The notes below the pieces were generated by a model. The model was not told where the DNA came from and did no database searches. It was given only the letters and a program-made list of their open reading frames with translations. Of a stretch of DNA of 22,564 bases, positions 2,678-17,923 are shown one piece after another. The stretch comes from a virus: positions 1 to 22,564 of the IMG/VR virus record IMGVR_UViG_3300017743_000142; one strand, written 5' to 3'. Position 1 is the first letter of the stretch. Each line of letters begins with the position of its first letter. The position numbers were made by a program, and so were the translations under genes.

Positions 2678-5191
2678 ATGGCTAGTTTAACATCATCACA
2701 AACAGGAAATTGGACTTCTTCTACTACCTGGGGAGGCAGTACTCCTGCAGCAGGAGATACATTTACTATATCAGCAGGACATAGGGTAACTATAGATAGC
2801 GATGTAGAAGTAGCTACAGGATTTGGAGATATTACCTGCCATGGTAGTTTATATTTAGACAACAGTGCTAAATTAGTTATGAATGGAAGAATAACTGTAA
2901 GAGCGAGCTCTAAAACACAATATTTTACAGAAGGAAATACCTCATCAGGAGGTCAACTAGAAATGAGACCTGGATCAGAAATAGCTATTTCAGGTTCAAA
3001 CAGTGATCAACACGGTGTTTGGGTAGAAACAGAAAAATATACTTCTATAATATGTTCTGGTTCTGATAATAATTTAAATACCACACTTTCCTCAAGTCAT
3101 GATTACCAAACCGATTACCTCTCAGTTGCTGATGCTTCAAATTTTGCAGCTGAAGATTGGATTACAGTATTCAAAAGAAATGTAGATTATAGGGTGAGTA
3201 CTGATGAAGGAATGTGGGTACATGATGTTGATACAGGAAATAATAGAATATACTACAGACAGTTTGTTTCACCTTCTGCTACTATTACAAAAGTTTCCGG
3301 TACAAATATTTTTGTAGATAATGTAAAAGTTTTCAGAAAAGGCTATAAAATTATATTTGGCACTGGAGCTAACAGGAATGTAGCAACTATATTATCTATA
3401 AGTCCTAGAAGAAACAAAATGCTAGTAGACACTAGCATATCAGGAACAGTTGTTGGAGAAAAAGTCTACCAAACAGGTACTGAAAAATACCATGTTGACG
3501 GTAGTATGGTCAAAAGAATGGCTACTACTCTAACCACAGCTATTACAACAGCTGATTCTACAGATCAAATTACTATAGGAGATGCTTCAGACATAAACGT
3601 TGGAGATGAAATACTTATAGATGTTAATAACGATACTGATACCGCTTGGGATTATAATACCAGGTATGTTGTAACAGCTAAATCCGGTAATACTTTAACT
3701 TTACACGTTCAAGTAAGGTATGTTCATAAAGTTGGCAGCTTAATTGTCATCTTGACAAAAGATACTAGAATTAGAGCTGCAGACGATTCAAGTAATACAA
3801 GAGTTTTTGTCTATGTAGAAAGATGGACCAGTAACGACGGATACACCAGACGGGTATTATTTAGAAATGTAGAATTCAAAGGCTTAGGTAGAAATACCAG
3901 TTCTACTTACTATAACGGTGTAATGATAGGAGGTAAAACAGCTTACTTAAGAGACGATACTGATACCGATGGCGAAAATTTTGAATCTGCTTTTGATTCT
4001 TGCGTATATAACTCCTGCAACTATCTAAGTTCATATGCCGGTTTAGCATGCAGAGATACCTACAGGTTTATATATAGAAACTGTGTATCTTATAGAGGTG
4101 AAAGAGGATGGTGGGGTTATAGCGGTAACTATGATTTAAGATTTACTAATTTTTATTCAACACGACATTCTTATTCTGGATGGATGTCAGATGGATGGTA
4201 TAACCCCTATAAAAGACTTGCTTATATATATGTTACTAGAACAGATGATTATGCTTGCATAGTAAATCATATAAGAGAAGCCGGGACTATAAGACATTTA
4301 ATTTTATTGAATAACGAACAAAGAGGTTTTTACAGTTTTTATAGAATGCAAGATGGAGTCGTAGTTGAAAGACTTCTTCAAGACGGTTATAGATACCCAC
4401 CCTATATAGGAGCATCCGGAGGAAAGTTAACCTTCCTCGACTGTAAAATACAGCCAAATCGTTGGGACGGATCTGCTGAAGACGGAACCGGACAAGTATA
4501 CAGTAATTATATTTTAGCTCCAAATACAGACGATAGAACAACTTACAATAGAGGCGGGGGAAAATCAAGCTATGCCGAATATATACATTTTGGATTTGAA
4601 GAAAATGAGTTCGTACAATCTCAAGGAGGATGTTTGAGAACCTGGAGCCAGAGTGATAAATGCTGGCATGTACAGGTAGGTAGTGATACTAACTCCGGCT
4701 TTTTTGAAACTATATTTGTACCTGCTTTTACTAAAGTTAGAATTTCATGTGAAGTAGAGCTAGTATCTGGATTTGGAGGCACTAGACCTTACTTATTTGC
4801 AAATTCTTTAAATGATGTTCATAAGTTAGGTAGATATAGAAATCAATATACCGGTCAAGCTTCAATTCTTACTAGCGCTCAATTGTCTTCTAGCTATTAC
4901 CCGGTTGAAGTCGGATTTAGAGAACAAGAACAATACTCAAATTCTAGTTTAGGTTCGTTTGAAAATAAGCAGTTAACTGTAGAACCGCAACAGAAAGATT
5001 ATTTTCTCCAAACCGGTATTTACAATAGTGCGACTAATATTAGAGAAGAAGGGTATAAAATGAGAGATATTATAATATCGGTAGAAAAAAATACTAACAT
5101 GCCTATATTACACCAATTTGCACAAAAAACAAAACTTAAGGTTAGAAATAGTTTCACTGCACAGAAGAAACGTATAAGTGGTAGAATTTAA
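2678..5191 (+). CDS. G8-domain and beta-helix tailspike-like protein
   Basis: This 837-residue protein opens with a region (about residues 10-110) that looks like a G8 domain: GNWTSSTTWGG, then a PAAGD turn, GHRVTID, a GSLYLDNSAKLVMNG strand pair and a later RPGSEIAISG. G8 domains occur in CEMIP/TMEM2-type and other extracellular polysaccharide-related proteins, usually before a right-handed beta-helix. Residues about 110-640 fit a beta-helix: short strands, Asn and aromatic ladders, many Tyr/Trp/Arg (for example RGERGWWGYSGNYDL). The last 200 residues look like a separate beta-rich domain. It sits between two fibre genes, so I infer a tailspike that binds or cleaves a surface polysaccharide. 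No catalytic residues can be assigned by eye; it may only bind. No signal peptide, as expected for a virion protein. Confidence 0.6.
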   Translation: MASLTSSQTGNWTSSTTWGGSTPAAGDTFTISAGHRVTIDSDVEVATGFGDITCHGSLYLDNSAKLVMNGRITVRASSKTQYFTEGNTSSGGQLEMRPGSEIAISGSNSDQHGVWVETEKYTSIICSGSDNNLNTTLSSSHDYQTDYLSVADASNFAAEDWITVFKRNVDYRVSTDEGMWVHDVDTGNNRIYYRQFVSPSATITKVSGTNIFVDNVKVFRKGYKIIFGTGANRNVATILSISPRRNKMLVDTSISGTVVGEKVYQTGTEKYHVDGSMVKRMATTLTTAITTADSTDQITIGDASDINVGDEILIDVNNDTDTAWDYNTRYVVTAKSGNTLTLHVQVRYVHKVGSLIVILTKDTRIRAADDSSNTRVFVYVERWTSNDGYTRRVLFRNVEFKGLGRNTSSTYYNGVMIGGKTAYLRDDTDTDGENFESAFDSCVYNSCNYLSSYAGLACRDTYRFIYRNCVSYRGERGWWGYSGNYDLRFTNFYSTRHSYSGWMSDGWYNPYKRLAYIYVTRTDDYACIVNHIREAGTIRHLILLNNEQRGFYSFYRMQDGVVVERLLQDGYRYPPYIGASGGKLTFLDCKIQPNRWDGSAEDGTGQVYSNYILAPNTDDRTTYNRGGGKSSYAEYIHFGFEENEFVQSQGGCLRTWSQSDKCWHVQVGSDTNSGFFETIFVPAFTKVRISCEVELVSGFGGTRPYLFANSLNDVHKLGRYRNQYTGQASILTSAQLSSSYYPVEVGFREQEQYSNSSLGSFENKQLTVEPQQKDYFLQTGIYNSATNIREEGYKMRDIIISVEKNTNMPILHQFAQKTKLKVRNSFTAQKKRISGRI

Positions 5192-11880: not shown

Positions 11881-13581
11881 ATGGCAGAAACATTAATATC
11901 TCCAGGTGTATTTACTAGAGAAAATGACATCTCTTTTATCCAACCAGCACCTGTTGAGGCAGGAGCGGCAATCATCGGACCAACAGTAAAAGGACCAGTT
12001 GAAATACCAACCATTGTTACATCTTATAACGATTATGTAAGAAAATTTGGAGCTACATTTGAATCAGGTTCAGATGTAAACGAATTCTTTACATCAATGG
12101 CAGTTAAAAATTATTTCCAACAAGGAGGTAATACTTGCTTAGTAACAAGAGTAGTATCCGGAGCATTTACAGAAGCTTCAAATAGTAATATGGTAGCAGC
12201 AGATACAGGAGACGATCCTTTTGTAATTAAAACTATTGGTAAAGGAACAATTTACAATAATGCTAACACACAAAATACCGATGGTTCTTTGATTTCAGGT
12301 TCAGACGATAATTTAAGATGGGAGATTACTAACGTTGATAATAGCAAAGGTACTTTTAATTTAATTGTTCGTAGAGGTAATGACAGCCGTACAAATAAAG
12401 TTGTTTTAGAGACATTTAATAATGTAAATTTAGATCCTAATTCTACTAACTACATTGAAAGAGTAGTCGGTAATCAATATTTTAGTATTGCAGCAGATGG
12501 TTCTCAAATACAGACATCTGGTTCTTACGTAAATAATTCTAATTACGTATATATTTCATCTGTAGCAAGACAAACTTTAAATTATTTAGGAAACGACGGT
12601 CAAATAAGAATCGGCTCTTTATCAGGTTCATTACCTACAGCACAATCAGGTTCATTTACAGGCGCAACCGGTGACATTGCAGATGGAGCTAACTTGTATC
12701 ACAATATTAATAGTACAAACACACAGGGATTAGTCGGAAGTGATTATTCTAATGTTATTACGTTATTGGGTAATAAAAACGATTATAAGTTTAATATTGT
12801 TACTGCCCCTGGTATTTATAACACAAATTACGGAACAACAGTTGATTCTTTGATTTCTTTAGTAGAAACAAGAGGAGATGCTATAGCAATAGTAGATCTT
12901 ACAGGATATGGAAGTACGGTAAGTACTGCCAATACTCAAGCAGCAGATCTTAATTCTTCTTATGGAGCAGCATACTGGCCTTGGTTACAGACTCAAACCG
13001 GAAACGGTAAAATTGTCTGGGCACCATCTTCAGTATTTATTCCTGGAACTTACGCCTTTACAGATAATAGTTCAGCACCATGGTTTGCACCAGCAGGATT
13101 AGTAAGAGGAGGATTGACAGGAGCTGTACAAGCAGAAAAGAAATTAACTAGGTCGGATAGAGATTCTTTATATTCAAACAAAGTTAATCCAATCGCTACT
13201 TTCCCTGGAACAGGATTAGCAGTATTTGGTCAGAAAACTTTACAATCTAAAGCATCAGCATTAGACAGAGTAAATGTAAGAAGATTGTTAATCGAACTTA
13301 AAGAGTTTATTGGTAACCAAGCTGATTCTTTAGTATTCGAACAAAATACATTAACTACAAGAAACAGATTCCTTGCAGCAGTTAATCCATATTTGGAGTC
13401 TGTAGTACAGAGACAAGGATTATATGCCTATAGGGTAGTAATGGACGATACAAACAATACTGCTGACGTTATTGATAGAAATCAATTAGTAGGTCAGATC
13501 TTTATCCAACCGGCTAAGACAGCAGAATTCATAATCTTAGACTTCGTAGTAGAACCAACAGGAGCTACATTCGGAGCATAA
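11881..13581 (+). CDS. Contractile tail sheath protein, T4 gp18-like
   Basis: A 566-residue protein with the hallmark sheath start: LISPGVFTRENDISFIQPAP, then AAIIGPTVKGPVEIPTIVTS and a YNDYVRKFG segment. The middle (about residues 90-270) is a variable beta-rich insertion likely facing outward. The C-terminal third carries the conserved core: NVRRLLIELKEFIG, FEQNTLTTRNRFL, NPYLESVVQRQGLYAYRVVMD and a final FIQPAKTAEFIILDFVVEPTG. Sheath subunits form the contractile outer tube that drives the inner tube into the host; T4 gp18 is somewhat longer (659 residues). The gene is followed at once by the tail tube gene, as in most myoviruses. Start supported by the promoter-like motif 20 nt upstream and by the conserved N-terminus. 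Confidence 0.95.
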   Translation: MAETLISPGVFTRENDISFIQPAPVEAGAAIIGPTVKGPVEIPTIVTSYNDYVRKFGATFESGSDVNEFFTSMAVKNYFQQGGNTCLVTRVVSGAFTEASNSNMVAADTGDDPFVIKTIGKGTIYNNANTQNTDGSLISGSDDNLRWEITNVDNSKGTFNLIVRRGNDSRTNKVVLETFNNVNLDPNSTNYIERVVGNQYFSIAADGSQIQTSGSYVNNSNYVYISSVARQTLNYLGNDGQIRIGSLSGSLPTAQSGSFTGATGDIADGANLYHNINSTNTQGLVGSDYSNVITLLGNKNDYKFNIVTAPGIYNTNYGTTVDSLISLVETRGDAIAIVDLTGYGSTVSTANTQAADLNSSYGAAYWPWLQTQTGNGKIVWAPSSVFIPGTYAFTDNSSAPWFAPAGLVRGGLTGAVQAEKKLTRSDRDSLYSNKVNPIATFPGTGLAVFGQKTLQSKASALDRVNVRRLLIELKEFIGNQADSLVFEQNTLTTRNRFLAAVNPYLESVVQRQGLYAYRVVMDDTNNTADVIDRNQLVGQIFIQPAKTAEFIILDFVVEPTGATFGA

Positions 13582-13618: not shown

Positions 13619-14104
13619 ATGGCAGTATTAGATCCAAATGAAATAATGTTTAGAGCCTTTGAGCCTAAAGTTCAGAATAGATTTGTAATGTATGTTGACG
13701 GCATTCCATCGTTCATGATTAGAACAGTCGGAGGACCAACATTTACAGACAATACAGTAAAACTTGACCATATCAATTCATATAGAAAGATAAGAGGAAA
13801 AAGAGAGTGGGGAGATATAACTATGACTTTATATGATCCAATTACACCTTCTGGAGCTCAAGCTGCTATGGATTGGGCACGTCAATCTTACGAGTCAGTT
13901 ACAGGAAGAGCAGGATACTCAGATCTTTATAAAAAAGATTTAACAGTTAACGTTCTAGGACCTGTAGGAGATGTAGTATCAGAATGGATTATCAAAGGAG
14001 CATTCATTACTAACTTTGGACAAGGAGATTTCGATTGGAGTTCTGACTCACAAGTAGATCTTACAATTACTGTCTCAATGGATTATTGCATCTTAAATTA
14101 CTAA
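13619..14104 (+). CDS. Tail tube protein, T4 gp19-like
   Basis: 161 residues, close to the 163 of T4 gp19. It starts MAVLDPNEIMFRAFEPKVQN with RFVMYVDGIPSFMIRTVGGP, typical of T4-type tubes (a short helix then a strand pair naming the internal face). KLDHINSYRKIRGKREWGDI and MTLYDPITPSGAQAAMDW follow, and a C-terminal VDLTITVSMDYCILNY strand completes the barrel. Subunits stack as hexameric rings to form the inner tube through which DNA passes. Its position between sheath and assembly chaperone agrees. A strong terminator follows 20 bases after the stop, so transcription of the sheath-tube unit probably ends there. Confidence 0.95.
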   Translation: MAVLDPNEIMFRAFEPKVQNRFVMYVDGIPSFMIRTVGGPTFTDNTVKLDHINSYRKIRGKREWGDITMTLYDPITPSGAQAAMDWARQSYESVTGRAGYSDLYKKDLTVNVLGPVGDVVSEWIIKGAFITNFGQGDFDWSSDSQVDLTITVSMDYCILNY

Positions 14105-14225: not shown

Positions 14226-14447
14226 ATGAAGAGAGTAACAACACTAGTGTTACTGTTATTAGGGTTAATAGCAGTAGCCAATCCAGGAGAGCCACAAACT
14301 GCAGAAGAAAAAAAACTTTATCATCTCAAGAAAGCAAAATATCATGAGATTCAAGCTAAGTTACAAGCCGGAGACATAACTCTACAACAGGCACAGCAAC
14401 TGTGGCAAAAGGAACTTAAGAAACTTAAGAAAAGAGAGGGTAAATAG
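14226..14447 (+). CDS. Small exported protein, probable moron
   Basis: 73 residues beginning MKRVTTLVLLLLGLIAVANP, a clear signal peptide: two basic residues, a run of Leu/Val, and AVA before a likely signal-peptidase I cut near residue 18. There is no Cys, so it is not a lipoprotein. The mature part is about 55 residues, helical and strongly basic (YHLKKAKYHEIQAKLQAGDI, then LWQKELKKLKKREGK). It interrupts the tube-to-tape-measure order and has its own promoter-like motif and terminators on both sides, the pattern of a moron. A virion part would not normally carry such a signal, so I infer a periplasmic role during infection, for instance in lysis, envelope change or exclusion of other phages. 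No family recognised. Confidence 0.7.
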   Translation: MKRVTTLVLLLLGLIAVANPGEPQTAEEKKLYHLKKAKYHEIQAKLQAGDITLQQAQQLWQKELKKLKKREGK

Positions 14448-14515: not shown

Positions 14516-15256
14516 ATGAGTACAAAATTTAACTTGCCTACCGAAACGGTAGAGCTTCCTTCCAAAGGTTTACTTTATCCGATAGATTCTCCTTTATCAA
14601 GCGGTACTATTGAAATGAAGTACATGACTGCTAAGGAAGAAGATATTTTAACTAATCAAAACTATATTAGACAGGGTACAGTAATTGATAAATTATTACA
14701 GTCTTTAATTGCTACTCAAGGAATAGATTATTCTGAAATTTTAGTTGGAGATAAAAATGCAATTATGGTAGCAGCACGTATTTTATCTTATGGAAAAGAC
14801 TATGAAATAGACTATAGAGGAGAAAGCATTTCTGTTGATTTGTCTGAAATGAATCCAAAAGAGATAGACGAAAAATTATTTAAAAAAGGGGAGAACTTAT
14901 TCGATTTTCAATTACCTGCTTCAAAAAATAACGTTACTTTTAGACTGCTTACACATAGAGATGAAAAGCTCATTGAAAAAGAGCAGCAAGGCTTAAAAAA
15001 GATTGACAAAAATAGTAGTGCAGAAGTAACTACCAGAATGAAGCATATCATAACATCAGTTAATGGATTATCTGAACAAAAGGACATAAGAGAATTCGTA
15101 GATAAGTATTTATTGGCGAAAGATGCTAGAGCATTAAGAGAATACTACAACGATATTAATCCTGATATGAACCTTGTTTTTACTTACGATAATAACGGCG
15201 TTGAGGAGGACGTCGACTTACCGATAGGGCTTAACTTTTTTTGGCCTGACATCTGA
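14516..15256 (+). CDS. T4 gp26-like baseplate/tail assembly protein, zero-frame product
   Basis: 246 residues. The start MSTKFNLPTETVELPSKGLL and the MKYMTAKEEDILTN segment, with LLQSLI and ILSYGKDYEIDY after it, match the T4 gp26-type baseplate family (PF12322). The end, DLPIGLNFFWPDI, carries an FFWP motif that I recall from this family. T4 gp26 is described as a baseplate hub assembly component. Here the gene lies between tail tube and tape measure, the position of the tail assembly chaperone in many tailed phages, where a second product is made by frameshifting. A T7 run (15236-15242) sits six codons before the stop, and the extension downstream has no start codon, so I predict this short form plus a 322-residue fusion. 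Start supported by family N-terminus and upstream motif. Confidence 0.85.
   Translation: MSTKFNLPTETVELPSKGLLYPIDSPLSSGTIEMKYMTAKEEDILTNQNYIRQGTVIDKLLQSLIATQGIDYSEILVGDKNAIMVAARILSYGKDYEIDYRGESISVDLSEMNPKEIDEKLFKKGENLFDFQLPASKNNVTFRLLTHRDEKLIEKEQQGLKKIDKNSSAEVTTRMKHIITSVNGLSEQKDIREFVDKYLLAKDARALREYYNDINPDMNLVFTYDNNGVEEDVDLPIGLNFFWPDI
15236..15242 (+). promoter_or_regulatory. Predicted programmed frameshift site
   Basis: The zero-frame codons read CTT AAC TTT TTT TGG. A +1 slip of the tRNA-Phe on the run of seven T residues keeps perfect pairing and moves ribosomes into the frame open from 15228 to the stop at 15483-15485. A -2 slip would reach the same frame with one extra Phe. The -1 frame is closed at once by TGA (15247-15249). 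A GAGGAGG stretch lies at 15203-15209 but is too far upstream to match known stimulators, and no clear pseudoknot was found by eye. Confidence 0.65.
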
Positions 15257-15485
15257 TTATAGAACAGCAGTATTTTCTCAAATACACGAAATAGTTTTTC
15301 ACGGTAGAGGAGGATACACCTGGCAAGACGTATACAATATGCCCATATGGCTAAGAAGGTACACCTTTCAAAAAATCCAAGAATGGTTTGATAAACCAAA
15401 CAAAGAAAATCAACAGCAACCGGAAGGTAAAATACACCGTCCGGGTATAGATCCAACTTATAACTATAAAGCCCCTACAAAATAG
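15243..15485 (+). CDS. Frameshift extension of the gp26-like assembly protein
   Basis: This frame encodes 80 residues: GLTSDYRTAVFSQIHEIVFH, a glycine turn, TWQDVYNMPIWLRRYTFQKI, then a hydrophilic tail ending PTYNYKAPTK. It lacks any plausible start: the upstream stop is TAG at 15225-15227 and the first ATG (15339) falls inside the conserved-looking VYNMPIWLRR segment. A fusion to the preceding gene by +1 or -2 frameshift is therefore the simplest explanation. The YNMPxxLRR pattern resembles the small protein encoded after gp26 in other T4-like marine phages (from memory), where it may have its own start. By analogy with lambda G/GT, the extension may contact the tape measure protein encoded next. 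A terminator overlaps its stop codon. Confidence 0.7.
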   Translation, partial: GLTSDYRTAVFSQIHEIVFHGRGGYTWQDVYNMPIWLRRYTFQKIQEWFDKPNKENQQQPEGKIHRPGIDPTYNYKAPTK

Positions 15486-15520: not shown

Positions 15521-17923
15521 ATGGCAGAAGATAATTTAAATGAAGGTTTTACACCCGAACAAGTAAGAAATGCTGAATCTATAAAAGATTCAATGGCCGG
15601 TATACGAACTGCTGTTAATCAACTTAACCAGGCACTAGATTCGACCGAAGAAAGTACAGCTAATGTTGGAAAAATATTTAATCAAATTGAAAACTCAGCC
15701 GGTAAAGTAGCCGATATACAAAAAAAAGCAGCTGATTCTACTAAAGGTACGAAAAATGCTTTAGGAGAGCAGATTAAAAATCAAAATATAGTTTTAACTC
15801 TGAATCAAAAAGTTAATAACCTTTATAGTAAAGCTTTAGATTTAAGAATACAAGCAGCTAAGATAGAAGAAGGTGATAAAGAAGAAGCGATTAAAAAAAG
15901 ACAAGCTTTATTAGATCAAGCTGATCTGCTTGAACGTCAATCTAAAAATCTTGTAGCGGCTAGAGATAGCTCTCAAGAACTAGCAAATACTTATAAATCT
16001 ATTGTAGACTCTTCGACTATACTAGATTCTAATACTACCTTCTTCAGAGGTTTAGAAAGAATTGTAAAAGATATACCTGTTTTAAGACAACTTCCTTTAG
16101 GGTTTGAAGAAGCTGCTAAAGCTGCAAGACAGGCCGCAATGCATAACCTTAAGCAGTTAGTCTATAAAGATAAAATAGATGAATTAAGTAAGGAAGAATT
16201 AAAAACTGGAAAAGGACTAACACAGCAAAGATTGCTAGAGTTGGATTTATTAGATTTGACACAAGGTAAAACAGGTAGTCAAGCTGCAAAAATGTTAAGA
16301 GATTTTAAAAATTCTTCTGAGCAGATTAATGTAATGGGAGCCGGATTCAAAACCCTAGGCACTCAATTAAAAGGTGCCCTCGGTCCACTTCTTTTAATTG
16401 ATCTTGCTGTTAAAGCAGTAAAAGGACTAGTAAATTTATTTATAGGAGCTAATAATCAGGCTGTTGATTTAGCTAGATCATTTGGTACTAGTGTAGATAC
16501 TGCAGATCAGTTTAGAGAACGTTTAAGAGAAGTAAGAACACTCACCGGGAATACAAGAAATAATGTAGAATTTACTATTCAAGCAGCTAAAGAATTAACT
16601 GAAGAATTTAGTATAGTAGGAGATTTATCTGACGATATTTTAGATTCTCAAACATTTTTAACTAGAAAGGTAGGTGCGACAGCACAGGAGGCAAGCAAAC
16701 TTAATCTTATTTTTGCAGCTACTAATCAAAATGCAAAGGAGAGTACTAAAGAAATGAATCAAATAGTACAAGAATTTGCCAATGCAAATGGAGTAGCAGT
16801 ACCTTTAAAAGACGTTATATCAGATGTATCTTCAGCAGGTTCTGAGATAGCCGGTTATTTTGGATTTTCTACAAAAGAACTTACACAAGCTGTAATACGA
16901 ACAAGAAGATTAGGAGTAAATTTAAATCAGGCTAAAAATATAGCCGAAGGTTTATTAAATTTTGAATCTTCTATATCTTCTGAACTGGAAGCAGAGCTAT
17001 TAACCGGACAGCAGTTTAATCTTGAAAGAGCTAGGATGTTAGCTTTTACTGGAGATATAGCTGGAGCGACAGAAGATGTTTTAACTCAAATGCAAAACTT
17101 AACTGAAGAGCAGAGGAAAAGCCCTATTATAATGAAGTCTATGGCCGCTGCAACTGGTCTTTCAGTAGAAGAGTTAAATAAAGCATTTTTACTTCAAGGA
17201 AATATTAATCGTCAAAGAGATGAATATAACAGAATACGTTATGAAGAAGGTGAAGAGGCAGCACGTATAGCTTTAAGAAAAGCAGGAATTGAACAAGCTA
17301 GTATAAATGATATGGAAAGAAGGATAACTTTAAGTGAACAGTTTCAAGAGGCTATGACTGATATAAAACAGCAGTTCATGGGACTAGTAAATGGAGGAAC
17401 AATTCAACTATTAATAGATTCAATACAAGGTTTTGCTGAATTCATGGACAGGTACTTTGGTCCTAGTATGGATGAAAGAGCAAGAAGAGCTGTCACTGCT
17501 GTTCAAAAAGAAGGAACACAGAATATAAATAAAGATGCAATTCTTCGATTAGAAAAACAAAAAAAACAAGAATCTGATAGAATAAATAAATTTATAAACA
17601 TGTCCGGTAGTACCGGTATGTATAACCCCTATACCACATTAAGCCTACGCTACCAGTCATCTCAAAGGCAAAAAGATTTAAATACAAAACAGATTAGGCT
17701 TTACGAAGAAGGAAAACAAGTAAATTCTACTGATGCTAACGATTTTACTATCCGAACCAATCCTAAAGATACTCTAGTAATGGCAGGAGGAACACAGTTT
17801 GGAGAAGAAACTAACACATTACTTAAAGAACTAATATCAGCAGTTAAATCTGGTGGAGATGTATATATGGACGGTAATAAAGTAGGACAATCCTTAGTAC
17901 TTTCTACATATAAATCAACTTAA
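15521..17923 (+). CDS. Tail tape measure protein
   Basis: 800 residues, the longest gene after the assembly chaperone, as expected. The N-terminal 170 residues are coiled-coil-like (NQLNQALDSTEESTANVG, later QALLDQADLLERQSKNLVAA). A hydrophobic segment GALGPLLLIDLAVKAVKGLV near residues 285-310 could cross or insert into a membrane. Long helices follow to about residue 640. The C-terminus has a DTLVMAGGTQFGEETN segment and a GGDVYMDGNKVGQSLV end, typical of tape measure tails. The protein sets tail length and enters the host envelope at infection; at the usual 1.5 Angstrom per residue, 800 residues predict a tail near 120 nm. No muramidase or peptidase domain is evident. Confidence 0.85.
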   Translation: MAEDNLNEGFTPEQVRNAESIKDSMAGIRTAVNQLNQALDSTEESTANVGKIFNQIENSAGKVADIQKKAADSTKGTKNALGEQIKNQNIVLTLNQKVNNLYSKALDLRIQAAKIEEGDKEEAIKKRQALLDQADLLERQSKNLVAARDSSQELANTYKSIVDSSTILDSNTTFFRGLERIVKDIPVLRQLPLGFEEAAKAARQAAMHNLKQLVYKDKIDELSKEELKTGKGLTQQRLLELDLLDLTQGKTGSQAAKMLRDFKNSSEQINVMGAGFKTLGTQLKGALGPLLLIDLAVKAVKGLVNLFIGANNQAVDLARSFGTSVDTADQFRERLREVRTLTGNTRNNVEFTIQAAKELTEEFSIVGDLSDDILDSQTFLTRKVGATAQEASKLNLIFAATNQNAKESTKEMNQIVQEFANANGVAVPLKDVISDVSSAGSEIAGYFGFSTKELTQAVIRTRRLGVNLNQAKNIAEGLLNFESSISSELEAELLTGQQFNLERARMLAFTGDIAGATEDVLTQMQNLTEEQRKSPIIMKSMAAATGLSVEELNKAFLLQGNINRQRDEYNRIRYEEGEEAARIALRKAGIEQASINDMERRITLSEQFQEAMTDIKQQFMGLVNGGTIQLLIDSIQGFAEFMDRYFGPSMDERARRAVTAVQKEGTQNINKDAILRLEKQKKQESDRINKFINMSGSTGMYNPYTTLSLRYQSSQRQKDLNTKQIRLYEEGKQVNSTDANDFTIRTNPKDTLVMAGGTQFGEETNTLLKELISAVKSGGDVYMDGNKVGQSLVLSTYKST

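Follow-up and report, generated by a model that had tools for sequence, protein, structure and literature searches.

A widely conserved signal for predicted +1 programmed frameshifting in a T4-type tail assembly chaperone gene

Judged from its sequence, the tail assembly chaperone gene described here carries a real and widely conserved +1 programmed frameshift signal of a T4-type chaperone. We analyzed IMG/VR record IMGVR_UViG_3300017743_000142 from position 1 to 22,564 (this whole stretch of 22,564 nucleotides is hereafter the window), and conclude that the locus very probably makes its chaperone in two forms through a +1 slip. The features that matter for this argument are the following:

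11881-13581, plus strand: tail sheath of a contractile tail (PF04984, 8e-15; phrog_23, 4e-76)
13619-14104, plus strand: gp19-like tail tube, upstream neighbor of the chaperone (PF06841, 8.1e-8; phrog_4542, 5.9e-28)
14516-15256, plus strand: zero-frame ORF of 246 amino acids, the G-like short form (TAC-N) of a gp26-like tail assembly chaperone
15225-15227, plus strand: +1-frame stop codon TAG upstream of the T-run
15228-15485, plus strand: +1-frame ORF, 85 codons from stop to stop
15236-15244, plus strand: slip site TTT TTT TGG, in zero-frame codons
15243-15482, plus strand: T-like C-terminal domain of the long form, 80 residues, with its stop codon at 15483-15485
15254-15256, plus strand: zero-frame stop codon TGA, end of the short form
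15521-17923, plus strand: putative tape measure of 800 amino acids, downstream neighbor, assigned by position

The zero frame ends in CTT AAC TTT TTT TGG CCT GAC ATC TGA, with a run of exactly seven T residues at 15236-15242. An earlier sequence-only reading of this DNA had described a gp26-like gene ending at TGA 15254, a downstream frame that is closed by a stop at 15225 and lacks a start codon, and an overlap of the two at seven Ts read as TTT TTT TGG in the zero frame. All of this is present as described, and no ATG, GTG or TTG precedes the conserved core of the +1-frame ORF in the window. The same reading gave the downstream frame 80 residues, which holds for the residues that would follow the slip; the ORF itself is the longer one listed above. 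By composition alone, a stop-free frame of 65 codons would arise here with a chance of about 0.005. The reality of the +1 ORF is settled by its conservation in homologous loci.

That the shift occurs, how efficient it is and what each form does are inferred along the following lines. Most ribosomes would read 14516-15256 to the zero-frame stop and release the G-like short form. In a minority, the P-site tRNA-Phe on UUU, with UGG in the A site, would re-pair with the overlapping UUU one base downstream, so that the next codon becomes GGC and translation continues in the +1 frame. If the slip follows the second TTT, 242 codons of the zero frame are fused to 80 of the +1 frame, and the resulting GT-like long form of 322 amino acids would carry a small helical domain at its C-terminus. 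If lambda is a guide, the G parts may coat the tape measure, and the T part may bring in tail tube subunits.

Position and family membership, together with modest fold matches, point to a G/GT-type tail assembly chaperone as the product. The gene lies between the gp19-like tail tube and the putative tape measure, bearing out the lambda G/GT position that had been proposed for it. The 15521-17923 ORF found no family match in our profile searches of the window; we call it a putative tape measure because the gene at the same position is annotated so in Flavobacterium phage immuto, LIS04 and SP-15, whose annotations show the same order of tube, chaperone and tape measure. The G part matches PF12322 (T4_baseplate) with 26.6 bits (cutoff 24.5) and phrog_150 with 4.7e-12, as do T4 gp26 and gp51. 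The G and T structures were modeled separately. With the AF2 model of the G part (pLDDT 92.3), the best PDB chains in a fold search were YqbN (3klu, Z 5.6), which we take to be a member of the XkdN-like tail chaperones, and the HK97 tail assembly chaperone (2ob9, Z 4.6), followed by 5ir0 (Z 4.0) and then by unrelated rows at Z 2.3; these matches to the TAC fold are modest, as a Z under 8 is no proof. A sequence search of the PDB returned nothing relevant. The T domain is predicted to be helical, with pLDDT 82-92 across its first 50 residues and a disordered tail, and its fold search gave weak matches only, to short unnamed myovirus ORFs and to a 107-aa baseplate protein of Klebsiella phage KPV15.

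Between the tail tube and the chaperone, the window holds a 73-aa ORF (14226-14447) with a hydrophobic, signal-like N-terminus, for which no family scored over the cut-off. Upstream of the tail sheath, 11056-11406 matches DUF7936 (PF25590, 4.9e-17), and an 837-aa protein at 2678-5191 has a sub-threshold match to the G8 domain (E 0.0017).

The two-frame layout is a property of the family. Scanning IMG/VR with the 246-aa protein yielded at least 596 confirmed relatives, 80 of which were kept, and the layout is present in 80 of these 80. Together with relatives of a Microcystis phage, a huge phage and a Listeria phage, they form a set of 185 readable loci, and the +1-frame extension occurs in 183 of them, representing 97 lineages at 80% protein identity. 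In untruncated loci the +1 ORF reaches 61 to 109 codons past the zero-frame stop; across the 176 such loci the +1 frame contains 0 stops, and the other two frames contain 1632 and 625. Past the zero-frame stop, differences among relatives fall on the three +1-frame codon positions as 1822/1238/4481, the third varying most, a pattern that, at the level of sequence, is the mark of a translated protein under purifying selection in the +1 frame. Among 124 conserved degenerate codon columns, the four that vary least are those of the slip-site residues F, F, P and D; two-frame coding explains part of the constancy of the P and D codons. The second Phe codon of the site is never TTC, which accounts for 185 of 837 Phe codons elsewhere (p 9e-10).

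A DNA-pattern scan, separate from the protein scan, ran from the slip site to the YNMP motif and allowed 31 gap lengths; its contigs overlap in part with the earlier loci. Among the matches listed, 80 of 80 contigs were in phase and open in the +1 frame with the site TTT TTT TGG, at spans of 99, 102, 105 or 117 bases. Isolate phages share the +1 layout as well, namely Flavobacterium phage immuto, Microcystis phage Mel-JY01, Rhodothermus phage RM378, Bacillus phage SP-15, Listeria phage LIS04 and Streptococcus phage GXN1. In the annotated +1 relatives that we read, the T part is left unannotated, shortened, or entered as a separate hypothetical gene.

The site itself varies within narrow limits. 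TTT TTT TGG occurs at 150 loci (plus RM378, where AAT follows), TTC TTT TGG at 14, TTT CTT TGG at seven, CTT TTT TGG at three and TTT TTT TAC at two, and TTT TTT CAC, TTT TTT CGT, AAC TTT CTA, TTC TTT CGT and GAG TTT TTT AGT at a single locus each; in one further locus of this tally the script's rule chose a later CTT TGA. In immuto, which infects Flavobacterium sp. LMO8, the site reads AGC TTT CTT TGG. A UUU_Y or CUU_U option for the P site is kept in all 183 +1 loci, supporting the proposal of a +1 slip at the T-run that preserves Phe pairing. Of the alignment of homologous loci that had been suggested as a check, phase and site held in 183 of 185 loci; an unbroken T-run turned out to be dispensable. 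The A-site codon is TGG, TAC, CAC, CGT, CTA, TTC or similar; the UGG of the window is a sense codon, and a stop codon of the prfB type does not occupy this place. Nor does a -1 heptamer (X_XXY_YYZ) describe the site, as the T ORF lies in the +1 frame at 183 loci.

These variants bear on how the two frames could be joined. The sequence-only reading had left the direction as +1 or -2, and the data choose +1. A -2 ribosomal shift of the kind seen in phage Mu would, at this site, enter the same frame with one extra Phe, and the TTTTTTT run does let Phe re-pair two bases upstream, both in the window and at most loci with TTT TTT TGG. Yet re-pairing is not available to all members: it fails in 10 loci, nine with TTC TTT TGG plus GXN1 with TTC TTT CGT, because no codon anywhere in the overlap can re-pair two bases upstream, and it fails at the slip site itself in the huge phage with AAC TTT CTA, so we regard -2 as very unlikely. 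The same interrupted runs speak against transcriptional slippage on the seven Ts, which would produce mRNAs of mixed length, some of them joining the frames. The run and the AT-rich genome would suit such slippage, but the identical architecture exists with runs of 3-4 Ts (TTT CTT TGG, TTC TTT TGG, TTC TTT CGT, AAC TTT CTA); homopolymer slippage is excluded in these variant lineages because their T-runs are interrupted, and for the family we consider it very improbable. That the run really has six Ts, an error of sequencing or assembly of the kind to which homopolymers are prone, had been raised as well; the identical phase at 183 loci from independent metagenomes and isolate genomes, along with the non-homopolymer variants, rules this out and leaves it a negligible chance.

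The downstream frame might instead be a separate gene, reached by re-initiation or through a non-standard start codon. In its favor, an ATG stands just past the G stop in L180 and L185, TAATG overlaps occur in LR756511 (L087) and Cygsa01 (L205), and many relatives have some ATG, GTG or TTG in the +1 frame, at no conserved place. Against it, the window and 66 others of the 176 loci have no such codon between the upstream +1 stop and the 12th codon past the zero-frame stop, only 28 of 176 have a start downstream of the slip, at scattered positions, and the block that is conserved is the slip site rather than a start. Start codons in the second frame of relatives had been named beforehand as evidence against a shift. 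L180 and L185 (3205-3500 in each), close relatives whose T domain has its own ATG after the G stop, do have one, but both are nested inside the +1 clade, and judging from the sequences their own-ATG T domains look like a later replacement of the frameshift. A separate gene therefore strikes us as a highly doubtful reading, and the sequence data best support +1 frameshifting by the ribosome at a Phe codon.

We found no sign of a conserved stimulator of the +1 shift. Folding downstream of the site (z -0.60) does not exceed that of a control region (-0.67), RNAalifold predicted no conserved pairs there, and the bases upstream of the slip are variable apart from codon-position constraints. What might boost the rate is a matter of guesswork: UGG may be decoded slowly, the E site may contribute, or the nascent Phe-Phe may act. 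The sequence-only reading had also connected the shift with starts that lack Shine-Dalgarno sequences. Such sequences are indeed absent before 14 gene starts in the window, whose leaders are A/T-rich. Translation of this kind is no precondition, because sites of the same type occur in SP-15, LIS04 and GXN1, whose hosts generally use Shine-Dalgarno sequences. A/T-rich leaders without Shine-Dalgarno sequences, as in the window, are also seen in Bacteroidota and their phages. The two-frame site also occurs on contigs filed with Winogradskyella and Flavobacteriales genomes, and these, together with the immuto phages, fit a Bacteroidota host for the window.

Beyond the +1 clade, the gp26 family reaches a short and a long form by other means. 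In cyanophage-type relatives gp26 ends in T-TTT-TTC and the T domain follows in the -1 frame in 80 of 80 cases (two cut by contig ends), an arrangement also present in S-RIM8, Aeromonas 65.2 and SRB7757 (-1 loci L202-L204 and L210-L289). These chaperones share with the window the G family, the place of the T domain and a shift at a Phe-Phe pair, UUU UUC; they differ in using the heptamer U UUU UUC to enter the -1 frame. The S-RIM8 annotation makes the -1 T domain a gene of its own, a 45-aa 'baseplate hub assembly catalyst', and calls the long gene after it, at the expected place of the tape measure, 'endolysin'. Profile comparison with hhalign relates T(+1) to T(-1) (prob 89.8, E 1.8e-6) and T(-1) to the C-terminus of T4 gp51 (prob 97.9, E 3e-13), and reversed or permuted controls stay at prob of about 6 or below. 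Compared directly, T(+1) and T4 gp51 give an insignificant match (prob 1.5), so their relation is transitive, via the T(-1) profile. In T4, gp26 is the G part alone and gp51 is a G part plus this C-terminal extension, and behind neither gene did we find a T-like +1 or -1 extension.

A tree of the G parts separates the +1 side from the -1/duplicate side with 100/99 support, its deepest joins being uncertain because of long branches; own-start forms occur on both sides. Shift direction thus largely tracks an ancient split in the family. Xanthomonas phage XacN1, a long branch on the +1 side, has a possible -1 site, GCT TTT TTT A, and an unusual T-like ORF (L206:4200-4450). On balance we favor a history in which the gp26 family split anciently into forward and backward recoding at the same Phe-Phe junction, with duplication (T4) and separate starts as later replacements; the forward clade, relying on a bare UUU_Y slip at a sense codon with neither a stop codon nor an RNA structure to help, would then rank among the larger +1 frameshift families of bacterial viruses. 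One homologous family would offer four routes to a short and a long form (+1, -1, two paralogous genes, a separate start), making the evolution of recoding direction testable. The +1 signal is simple and is missed by annotation: UUU_U before UGG in phages whose hosts have SD-less starts, and UUU_Y in Firmicutes phages.

Frameshifted tail chaperones usually shift by -1, and in a major review T4 figures as the exception to the conserved tail-chaperone shift (PMC5009743). T4 gp26 and gp51 appear elsewhere in a list as hub assembly chaperones (PMC3004832). For T4-like tail assembly chaperones, the PRFect paper (PMC10885494) and the phage Adele paper (PMC12846349) cite Vladimirov, Gautam & Davidson 2022 (Virology 566:9-15), which by their account describes poly-T -1 sites as well as a short gene accompanied by a longer fusion gene. 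We had considered the G/GT nature of T4 gp26/gp51 as a new idea and rejected this, since it is cited as published (PMC10885494). The earlier view of gp26 as a chaperone homologue is right, and was already in print for T4-like phages. Our literature search, in which Vladimirov et al. is represented by the papers citing it, found no report of +1 shifting in gp26-type chaperones, and the clade-wide +1 version appears to be the new part.

The closest known systems each share part of this arrangement. The CUU_UGA site of prfB (RF2) resembles the lineages with TTT CTT TGG and CTT TTT TGG, where a CUU_U slip is possible, but prfB has a stop codon in its A site and the gp26-family sites have none. In influenza A PA-X, mass spectrometry proved a +1 slip on UUU_C at UCC_UUU_CGU (PMC3498833); there too a P-site tRNA-Phe slips beside a sense A-site codon, albeit on a eukaryotic ribosome and in an unrelated protein. 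The GXN1 site TTC TTT CGT (L086:4709-4720) is almost identical to that of PA-X. Among tail chaperones with a shift other than -1, Atkins et al. (PMC5009743) give a likely +1 in the TAC of halovirus HSTV-2 and a -2 in Mu; these concern other phages and sites, in single or few phages, whereas the layout described here is clade-wide in the T4 gp26 family. Lambda G/GT occupies the same place between tail tube and tape measure and has a short and a frameshifted long product, but its shift is -1, at another slippery sequence. T4 gp26/gp51 belong to the same PF12322/phrog_150 family and likewise pair a short form with a longer one that carries a C-terminal extension; T4 does so with two paralogous genes and no frameshift, and the window would do so with one gene and a +1 shift.
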